A stretch of 64,000 nt of DNA from contig OX453281.1 of the NCBI GenBank assembly GCA_949710005.1, positions 18,339,501 through 18,403,500 of the forward strand, read 5' to 3'. The stretch comes from Ricordea florida (lineage: Eukaryota > Cnidaria > Anthozoa > Corallimorpharia > Ricordeidae). Below, piece after piece: positions 5,764 to 64,000 of the stretch; within the stretch, counting starts at the first letter, position 1, and each line of letters begins with the position of its first letter. The translations under genes and the position numbers were made by a program. The notes under the pieces are model-generated. The model saw only the letters and a list, made by a program, of their open reading frames with translations, was not told where the DNA came from and made no database searches.

Positions 5764-8700
5764 ATGTCTGTGGATGTAAGATTGCCAAAGGAGAGGAAAA
5801 GAGTTCCTCCTTTGGCAGGATTTGAACCGAAGCACATTGTTTCTCCTGGAGATGTGATCACAGAAGATACAGGTTACATGAGGTAAGGTTGAATCGTCAC
5901 ATTAATATCGATCTTCAAATTATTGTTTTCCTGAATTTTGTTTTAAATTTGTACGCTACTGTTCGCAGAGGTCATGGTACATACGGTGAAGGAGAAAAAC
6001 TGATCGCTTCTGTAGCTGGGATTGTTGAGAGAGTGAACAAACTGATCTGTGTGAGGCCTTTTAACACAAGGTGAGCACAGACATTACCACGAAAAACAAC
6101 TGCACAAACAGTACAGTCTGTAAAAAACACCGCTACATTAATTTTCTGTATAGCACCATGCTTAATTATACAAGCTATAGCTGCATTGTTTAGGGTAATA
6201 CACATACAAAAATTTACTATTATTATTAATGAAGAATGGGGTGGTATGGCAATCTAGCCAAAAATACCTCAAGTATTGTATCATCCAAGAAAATGGGTAA
6301 ATCAAACGAGTTGATTAAGTAAGTTATACCACCGTAAGGTTAAAGGGAGGTGCTGACGTTTCGAGCGTTAGCCCTTCGTCGGAGCGAATGACGAAGGGCT
6401 AACGCTCGAAACGTCAGCACCTCCCTTTTACCTTACGGTGGTATAACTTACTTAATCAACTCGTTTGATTTACCCATTTTCTTGTGTTTCAACTTCCCAC
6501 CGACGCAGCACCAGTTTCTTTAGAAACTATCCCCACAATATTGTATCATCCTACTAGTAAGAATCAACTGGTATACTAATGCAAATGCTGCAATCTGATT
6601 GGCTGAGCTACTGCATGCTATCAGCCATTACTATCACCCTACTAGTAGACTAATGCAAATACCACAATCTGATTGGTTACGCTACTAGAGGATTATGGGT
6701 AATAGTTCTTGAGTAGCGAAATTTGTGATGCTTTCTTTCGTTTTATTCCCAAATAAATATTTCTTCAACTGGTATTTGCAAACTTTGTTATTGCCTTTTC
6801 TGTCCAACTAGTTGGGCGATACTTAAGCAATTAGACCCTTTGCCCTCATGGACCACGGGTCAATAGCCCGCAGATTGTTAAGTAGAGTGCAGCACTTGAG
6901 ACATCTTCACACTTAAGCATTTTGGTATTTTTTTCACTGATATATGATTTGTTTATTACGATTTTTACTAAAACAATTAGATTATTCGCTCTCAATTTCT
7001 ATGAGGTGATAGTTGATTTAGCCTTCAGCCTCATGAACTATCATTATAATAATGACAGCCTGTGATGAGAAAATATATTTCCATTATGGTGGAGTGAAAG
7101 GGATGGAGCCCAATTCAGAAATCTGTTTTCTCACATTGCCACACAGACATGACAAAAACAGGAAGCTAGTATTTGAGACAGCTTTATTGTAAAATAATGC
7201 CACTTCACACACTGTCAAAATGGTACCAAGTTTGCAATAAAATATTATTAATACTCATGCTTCTTGATTTCTCAGCCAATCAGCATTGTCAGTGTACAGT
7301 ATGAGTGCAAATTACATCTTCAAGACATGTACTTTAATAATGGGACTTTGCTTTGATAGTAATTAAATCATGTTAAGATTCAATTTGCCAACTTGGTTAT
7401 GTCCCTGTTTTTTTGGCATTTTTGATTTTACCATAGTTCTAGTATTGCATTATATGATACCATGATTACATTATAAAATATTTTTATGATTGCATGTTTA
7501 ATTTATTCTTTGTTTTATTTTTACTTAAGATACAATGGGGAAGTAGGAGATGTTGTTGTTGGTAGAATTACAGAGGTATGGTTCATATTTGATAAGCAGT
7601 TCTTGAAAAATTTTTTTTTTTTGAAGTGTGATTATTTAACTGTGAGTTTTGTGATGAGGTGATTACAGGATGCAGCCCAGATGCTGGAAATGTTTTGTTA
7701 CGTTTGGCCAGATCAGATAACAAACTGACAACAAACTTTATTTCATGTTGTTCCTTTCCACCTTAGGGAGTAATTGGGCATTGAAGGTGTAACCATTGCC
7801 ATTGGTTTTTCTGCAATAAATTGAAAGGGTGCCTGTCCATAGTGACTTTTGACGAAGTCCTAGATTTTCCTTTTCATTCGCCTATGTTCTTGTGGGTCCA
7901 AAAAAAGTTTGACTCAGAATTGGGAGTCAATCACTTTGGTGCCTCTTCCATACACCTTTATTATTACGGTCTTATCCAAGGACAAAGGAGGTTCAGAAGG
8001 GCACCATCCATTCTTAAAGGTTGTGTACTATACATTGAAACCAGGTGTGCCATCAGACATGATGAAGACACAAAGCAAGAGTCACCTTTCAATGAAGTTG
8101 AAAATATAATTTTTACATGTTTATACTGTATCTATCTGAACTGAACAAAATGTGTTTGCAAAATTTTTGCTTGGAGACAGGCTTCCCAAGCTTTTGCCAT
8201 CCTCCAAACTTGAGGGGCTTGGTGTCAAGGCCCACCTTCCGTTATGGCCCAGCATTAGCCTTAACTGGTGATGAAAGTGTTTTTAGGGGTGTGGGAGGAG
8301 AGGAAGAGAAGCAAAGTGAAGGCGGCCAATGGGTATTTGCCAAAGTGTTTAGGGGTGTGGTACTGGGTTGCCTTTGACCAGTTAAGTTGGGTGCAGCACA
8401 CTATCTATAGTATAATTTATGTGTACTTAAGTGAAGCCTCAGTAGTCAGGGTTTTCAATAAGAATTGTAGCAGCTGGAGAATTGTGTAAAGTAACAGGAG
8501 AATATTCTGAAAGCGCTCCATGTCTGAATTTAAAAGTAGCTCAGGTCATCTAAATTTGACTAGGGAATTCTTTGTAGTAGCCGGAGATTTCTTTGCAGTT
8601 GCTGGAGAATCCTCCGATCTTCCTAATGAACAGCCTGAGTAGCACAAGTAATAATTCTGCTTTTGATACACAGTGTAAATTTACTGAAGATTCAAATTTT

Positions 8701-62800: not shown

Positions 62801-64000
62801 AGTCTTTTGTCCTTGTCTAAGGTATGATAAAAAAACTTTGCATTTTCTTTAGTCCTTCTCTTTTATATTTTTCATTACCTGAAGAAAAAAAAATAACTGG
62901 GAAACCGAGGCTGTCTTGTCATAAATCCAGTCAGTGCACATATTTCTAACTGGTACTGAAAATAAAATCATTAAAATCATAGTTGTAAAATCTGCCACTT
63001 TCCAAGAATCACAACCCGCTGAGAGCTTAAAACCGCTGCTATGAATGTTATCTTGTCCTTGAAAGTAGGAGTCTGAAATATATCATTTGAAGGCTTCTTG
63101 CCATGAAAGGTCACAATTCAAACGGGAATCTTGCAAACTCCCCGCCCCCAAAGTGGTTTTAAGCGAATTGAGTGTGTTGTGAATATAAAATTCTTGGTTT
63201 TCGTCGAATTGATGATTTCGTAAACTTCTGTTTTGGTTAAAAAGTGTTTGTTCCAAGTCTTAATTTCAAATTGTTGGAGTCGAGGACCTTGTCATTTAGA
63301 ACACAGCGTGAGATGACATGGGATATATTGTTAGTAATCGCGGATGATTCAGTTGTATAAACTTTTTCATTTGTCTCACGACTTGGATGTGGATCGCGAC
63401 AGTGACAGAAGACTAGCAGTTAGCGGTCGAAACGTCGCGAACCATAAGTGACCACGTCATGAGACAAATGAAAAACAGCGTGAGATTTTTATCTAAGAAC
63501 TGAACTTGTTCGTGCAATTTTCGCGCTTCCCTCTTTGAATTGTTATTTGCCAAACAGGAAGGTGCGCCCAACAGAGCACAAAATTGCGCCAAACTTGTTT
63601 TTTAATATCAACTCTTAAGTAATAAACTGTTGTTTGTAGTTGGGATGTAAGGTTGCTGGCCTAACAAGCGGTTTCTTTTCTGCCTTTTTTTTAGAAGATC
63701 CAGTTTACAAATTCAATCCTGAAAGAGTCAAAGCTTCGGTGGTTCCCGGCAGACTGAAGTGTACGCTCTGCAGACGAGGTTTCAACTCACGGAGCAACCT
63801 ACGTTCGCACATGCGCATTCACACCATGGAGAAACCGTTTCAGTGCAAGTTCTGTAAGAAGTCGTTTTCTCAGTCGTCTACGCTTCGGAACCACACCAGA
63901 CTTCACACGGGCGAGAAACCGTACAAATGCACCGTATGTCACTTCGCCTACTCGCAATTAGCCGGTTTGAGAGCACACCAGAAATCCGCGAGACACCGAC
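53889..64000 (+). CDS. PRDM12: PR domain zinc finger protein 12 (PRDM12), 3' partial
   Basis: Four exons keep phase: 53889-54063, 56490-56788, 57743-58049 and 63695 to the window end (362 residues so far). The N-terminal segment [20 protein letters not shown] resembles the equivalent part of vertebrate PRDM12. The PR/SET-like domain (about 100-240) has [40 protein letters not shown] and [11 protein letters not shown]. Exon 4 encodes three C2H2 fingers at 283-303, 311-331 and 339-361, including [15 protein letters not shown] and [17 protein letters not shown], almost identical to vertebrate PRDM12. In vertebrates this nuclear regulator acts in sensory-neuron specification and works with histone methyltransferases. 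The start was chosen at the ATG at 53889 because a stop lies 51 bases upstream in frame. The C-terminal end lies outside the window. Confidence 0.96.
54064..56489. other. PRDM12 intron 1
   Basis: About 2.4 kb of AT-rich intron. No transposon, tandem repeat or extra exon is visible. Confidence 0.5.
56789..57742. other. PRDM12 intron 2
   Basis: About 0.95 kb, interrupting the PR domain between LMWE and VLNEDG, a position that I believe is also an intron in vertebrate PRDM12. No repeat is seen. Confidence 0.5.
58050..62149. other. PRDM12 intron 3, left part
   Basis: About 4.1 kb without recognisable transposons. The 145-codon open stretch near 58743 has no ATG at its start, no domain and no splice support, so I treat it as chance. 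Confidence 0.45.
62150..62790. repeat. 106-bp satellite array B
   Basis: About six units in PRDM12 intron 3 match array A at 42065-42590 in sequence and orientation (CAGTACCACAGTACAGTACT, GAATGGTCACACTGCATGG, TTGATCCACAGATGAAAAAT). The units here are more alike than those in array A. Confidence 0.9.
63364..63475. mobile_element. foldback element in PRDM12 intron 3
   Basis: Short inverted arms (TTTTTCATTTGTCTCAYGAC and complement) flank AGAAGACTAGCAGTTAGCGG followed by GTCGAAACGT, the same core as the element at 9759-9970. It lies about 220 bases before the zinc-finger exon. Confidence 0.7.

Follow-up and report, generated by a model that had tools for sequence, protein, structure and literature searches.

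The stretch analysed, hereafter the window, comprises 64,000 nucleotides of Ricordea florida DNA on a single contig (C10:18339501-18403500) and contains no N. The genome amounts to 537.8 Mb in 48 contigs, of which C10, at 30.4 Mb, represents 5.65%. The family PF21318 (BRCA2 OB2), searched as a probe for placing the window, matched C7. Two complete genes were modelled on the forward strand, EXOSC2 (RRP4) followed by PRDM12 (Table 1).

The EXOSC2 model begins with an ATG exactly at 5764, its stop codon ends at 18952 and all of its introns are GT-AG. The top PDB match to the product was human exosome RRP4 (E 1.4e-115), to which query residues 1-297 of 298 could be aligned with 191 of 290 aligned residues identical, and the ORF that includes exon 7 was assigned a KH_6 domain by Pfam.

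The four coding exons of PRDM12 form one open frame, the final 113 coding bases of which lie beyond the window, at positions 1-113 of the next stretch (L002). Its product matched the PDB entry PRDM12 3ep0 (E 4.7e-53). The PR domain was best fitted by human PRDM12, at 183.9 bits versus 116.9 for PRDM14, with 78 of 144 residues identical to the human domain, and three C2H2 fingers were found by Pfam in the last exon. When the genome was searched with PRDM12 (104 of 502 candidates scored), its own four exons were matched at 88-98%, other PR domains reached at most 59% among the matches listed, and no second copy of the gene was present among these. Nine of the PR-domain matches listed fall within 0.9 Mb of another contig (C2:36.20-37.09 Mb), resembling a local PRDM expansion. 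As a separate observation on this genome, the GFP family gave 61 matches, 57 of them on C11 with an expansion at 8.98-19.74 Mb, some containing stops. Amphioxus likewise possesses many GFP genes.

Table 1. Features of the window, numbered from its first nucleotide.
Feature	Position	Strand	Details
EXOSC2 (RRP4) gene	5764..18952	+	complete, 9 CDS exons, 298 aa
EXOSC2 CDS exons 1-5	5764-5882, 5969-6070, 7530-7575, 8706-8795, 10839-10904	+	gene model
EXOSC2 CDS exons 6-9	12856-12924, 15311-15511, 16740-16865, 18875-18952	+	gene model
Minisatellite, EXOSC2 intron 5	11858..12779		TRF, rows with period 42, 63, 105
Reverse-transcriptase ORF, last EXOSC2 intron	17117..18589	+	RVT_1 E 2.5e-20
EXOSC2 stop to PRDM12 ATG interval	18953..53888		34,936 bp; host gene not recognised
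LINE-like element remnant, broken frames (partly by eye)	19628..24191	+	weak RVT_1 at 21453-21638, E 2.8e-4, below cut-off
DIRS-like retrotransposon (name inferred)	29077..32024	+	reverse transcriptase, RNase H, tyrosine-recombinase-like ORFs
Mobile-element ORF, 787 aa, dispersed family	35848..38208	-	genome copies; without Pfam family
PRDM12 gene	53889..64113 (window part to 64000)	+	complete, 4 CDS exons, 399 aa
PRDM12 CDS exons	53889-54063, 56490-56788, 57743-58049, 63695-64113	+	gene model, one open frame

Between the two genes, only transposon-type and unassigned ORFs were recognised, and no host gene, from a list of ORFs of at least 80 amino acids with little self-repeat, a Pfam scan of some of them (ten ORFs of the window, some outside the gap, the others being judged by eye) and a genome search with one ORF. 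The gap may hold a host gene that escaped recognition. Within the DIRS-like element, matches were obtained to RVT_1 (E 3.7e-18) and RT_RNaseH (1.7e-6), together with Phage_int_SAM_4 (2.3e-4) and Phage_integrase (3.4e-5), the latter two below their cut-offs. Searching the genome with the 787-aa ORF, with 57 of 512 candidates scored, yielded at least 64 matches, including near full-length copies on two other contigs. As these copies are 99% identical, the element appears to have been active recently, and the occurrence of near-identical copies elsewhere shows that the spacing of the two genes, at least, has changed recently. For three unassigned ORFs beyond 43 kb, Pfam gave no match.

Two further ORFs on the forward strand, at 26038-26310 and 34767-35381, flank the DIRS-like element and resemble halves of one protein with a Tudor- or chromo-like stretch; neither belongs to a Pfam family. 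Just upstream of EXOSC2, at 556-4755 on the forward strand, an ORF with ZSWIM/MULE RNase H-like matches is followed by one with SWIM, PHD and a weak Ulp1 peptidase match, both likely to be transposon-derived.

Gene order and chromosomal linkage

The original prediction described EXOSC2 and PRDM12 as neighbours on the same strand, in the order opposite to that of human, and both elements of this description were borne out: the genes are in tandem orientation with start codons approximately 48 kb apart, and no intervening host gene was recognised. Human EXOSC2 presumably lies on the same strand as human PRDM12. The latter is on the sense strand (PMC8585061). PRDM12 comes first in mammals, as judged from cattle coordinates: the order in cattle is FUBP3-PRDM12-EXOSC2-ABL1 with a PRDM12-EXOSC2 gap of 9.3 kb (PMC10621155), the sheep gene list gives the same four genes in one run, in agreement with cattle (PMC10376747), and human distances are consistent with this arrangement (PMC8774373). 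Ancient microsyntenic pairs are defined by orthologues that lie adjacent in each lineage, separated by no more than two genes, and EXOSC2 and PRDM12 lie so here, as far as host genes were recognised, and in cattle and sheep. A single inversion cannot swap the order of a tandem pair, hence the arrangement has been rebuilt at least once; the swap needs a transposition or about three inversions. In the literature searched, which did not extend to supplements or the Irimia list, PRDM12-EXOSC2 linkage in a cnidarian was unreported; the papers naming both genes were mammalian and, as far as seen, none dealt with synteny.

No ABL1 or FUBP3 motif was detected by crude patterns in 344 kb, and the conserved block is, as far as seen, limited to two genes. 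Upstream of EXOSC2 are exons of COG7 (minus strand of stretch L024, 493-771 and 3872-4132), with a Pfam score below the cut-off. Approximately 4.1 kb past the PRDM12 stop, YEATS and 3HBD occur in one intronless frame of 896 amino acids on the minus strand (L002 4169-6856; C10:18407669-18410356), which we take to be a YEATS2-type gene and which is perhaps a retrocopy. In human, COG7 and YEATS2 both lie outside 9q34. A golgin-like N-terminus further downstream (L006 3983-4327) was considered as GOLGA1 and dropped as a 9q gene, having neither a GRIP motif nor a Pfam family.

At the scale of the chromosome, an ancient linkage of EXOSC2 and PRDM12 is supported. Seven Pfam families were chosen as markers of human 9q34; four matched C10, one matched C3 and two were without a match. 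Those on C10 were SPOUT1 (0.38 Mb), COQ4 (8.54 Mb, one exon), ASS1 (19.69 Mb) and PTPA (24.15 Mb). SPOUT1, COQ4, PTPA and TRUB2 we take to be residents of human 9q34. For the others, ASS1, FUBP3 and ABL1, a position beside PRDM12 is given for cattle and sheep in PMC10621155 and PMC10376747. The families representing FUBP3 (FUBP_C) and ABL1 (F_actin_bind) gave zero matches in the genome search, a result which does not show absence of the genes. TruB_N was chosen to test the COQ4-TRUB2 pair and matched with one exon, of uncertain orthology, on C3 rather than C10. COQ4 and TRUB2 form a pair in human; the TruB_N domain is common to TRUB1, TRUB2 and dyskerin, and the match on C3 therefore says little. 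With C10 at 5.65% of the genome, the computed probability of four out of four markers falling on C10 by chance is approximately 1e-5, or 5e-5 for four out of five if TruB_N is counted as a miss. Other genes of the human region thus share the chromosome of the pair, as in an ancestral linkage group, for four of the seven families. Their spread from 0.38 to 24.15 Mb indicates that the chromosome was kept and gene order lost. Sea anemones are described in similar terms, with chromosomes kept, order lost and low microsynteny among cnidarians (PMC10719294).

Inherited adjacency or a second meeting

We give slightly better than an even chance to the view that C10 descends from the ancestral chromosome of 9q34, that the pair was on it prior to the split of cnidarians and bilaterians, and that the two genes have been close ever since. 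C10 would then be the counterpart of an ancestral animal chromosome that also yielded human 9q34. The presence of both genes on that chromosome before the split is supported here, and they were most likely already close. Local shuffling within the chromosome would have swapped the order of the pair and scattered the other 9q34 genes over approximately 24 Mb while the pair was kept within 35 kb, so that its closeness would most simply be a remnant of the gene neighbourhood of the ancestor. Any force holding the genes together might be control of PRDM12 from sequence on the EXOSC2 side, without CTCF-bounded domains.

Inheritance is favoured by two intact genes that lie on the same strand 34.9 kb apart and are adjacent in cattle and sheep, by the four markers on C10, and by the size of the gap: if the two genes are on C10 and the position of one is drawn at random, a gap no larger than 35 kb arises with a probability of 0.0032. 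Weighing against it are the swapped order, neighbours of the COG7 and YEATS2 type, the TruB_N match on C3, the number of such pairs expected by chance, and a deficit of old blocks, since vertebrates inherited 70 blocks of three or more genes versus 110-124 in shuffled genomes, that is, fewer (PMC8851819). The adjacency is probably inherited, a leaning that is not firm.

The strongest competing account, less probable yet far from negligible, is that EXOSC2 and PRDM12 were always on one chromosome, were separated when its genes were shuffled and by chance became neighbours again in this lineage. The swapped order would follow naturally, as would the scattering of other 9q34 genes on C10 and the difference between the nearest identified genes here and those in human. 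Low microsynteny among cnidarians (PMC10719294) points the same way. If 1500-5000 adjacent ancient pairs are assumed, 40-70% of them on shared chromosomes, 2-11 pairs adjacent by chance are expected per genome, which is more than one under these inputs. For one named pair, however, the probability is of the order of 0.003 given the contig. The retained linkage proposed in the original prediction is supported at the chromosome scale, whereas for close adjacency a small probability for this pair has to be set against the several such pairs expected per genome.

A possible regulatory constraint and its significance

Possible, but in our estimation doubtful, is an account in which PRDM12 enhancers within or beyond EXOSC2 would have hindered separation of the genes since the cnidarian-bilaterian ancestor, by analogy with what has been argued for Isl-Scaper. 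Such a target-and-bystander relationship would itself be one form of inherited adjacency, and the likelihoods we attach to the two overlap. Pairs in which a developmental regulator adjoins an unrelated gene with enhancers in its introns form an established class (PMC5429095, following Irimia 2012). EXOSC2 and PRDM12 fit the class, PRDM12 being the developmental regulator and EXOSC2 the unrelated neighbour, and as a candidate pair resemble the ancient metazoan microsyntenic pairs of PMC5429095, adjacent unrelated genes of which one is a developmental transcription factor, shared by distant animals; they differ in that the order is swapped here. Enhancer-like marks were found in 43 of 60 such old sponge pairs, although the same source reports that Nematostella has not conserved the Isl2-Scaper pair itself (PMC5429095). 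According to an echinoderm study, contacts over long range are older than CTCF, and old blocks correspond to TADs (PMC13317027). Ultra-conserved non-coding elements are common to edwardsiid anemones (PMC12053456), and old cnidarian blocks are inferred to be held by constraints other than CTCF (PMC8851819).

Several observations count against a regulatory tie. The gene order is swapped, and transposons, young ones in the gap, together with a minisatellite lie in the gap and the EXOSC2 introns. The single mouse Prdm12 enhancer found in the literature searched sits upstream of the ATG by more than 25 kb, on the side away from EXOSC2 in mammals (PMC8585061), and two species of sea anemone are described in PMC10719294 as having close-range regulation and no clear TADs. 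The same paper gives cnidarians as lacking CTCF. A genome search with human CTCF zinc fingers (150 of 309 candidates scored) did not find a CTCF-like gene here, the best-scoring match being 38% identical and none of the matches listed exceeding 49%, as is typical of generic fingers. In combination with the many GFP genes, this result is suggestive of an anthozoan, and the want of any listed match above 49% speaks against a bilaterian such as amphioxus. Vertebrate genomic regulatory blocks lie within CTCF-bounded TADs. The pair is a candidate for the target-and-bystander arrangement of such blocks and differs from them in that the CTCF on which a block inside a CTCF-bounded TAD depends was not found in this genome.

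Base composition is mildly favourable to a regulatory tie. In the 5' part of EXOSC2 (4-10 kb) the observed/expected ratio of CpG was 0.33-0.47, whereas within PRDM12 it was 1.01-1.25 at 54-62 kb and 0.78 in the final 2 kb. In 2 kb bins it changed in steps along the window, from 0.24-0.47 at 1-10 kb through 0.86-1.39 at 12-28 kb and 0.21-0.69 at 28-38 kb to 0.67-1.29 at 38-64 kb. This profile suggests that EXOSC2 and PRDM12 may occupy different methylation or expression regimes, which argues against co-expression. That co-regulation keeps the genes together through shared expression is very improbable: nothing was found in its favour, there is no evident reason for an exosome subunit to follow a neural pattern, and the tandem starts are far apart. 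Misassembly is equally hard to credit despite the repeats within the interval, given the N-free window, the long single contig and the expectation that a random join would not reproduce a mammalian neighbourhood.

With four 9q34 genes on one contig and their order lost, C10 resembles the cnidarian ancestral linkage groups described in PMC10719294, from which the present case differs in that EXOSC2 and PRDM12 lie nearer to each other than a named pair would be expected to from linkage alone. C10 thus illustrates an animal chromosome that retains its genes while their order is lost. Conserved pairs of unrelated genes serve to locate old regulatory domains, and survival of a pair including PRDM12, a gene of pain-sensing neurons, without CTCF would help to test the need for vertebrate-type chromatin domains. 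A linkage inherited by both cnidarians and bilaterians would be more than 500 million years old. It is unlikely, in our judgement, that PRDM12-EXOSC2 represents a previously unreported regulatory linkage of this kind, maintained across a change in gene order and without CTCF in the genome; if it does, then together with the sponge evidence it would mean that the constraint between target and bystander genes predates CTCF-bounded domains and does not depend on them.
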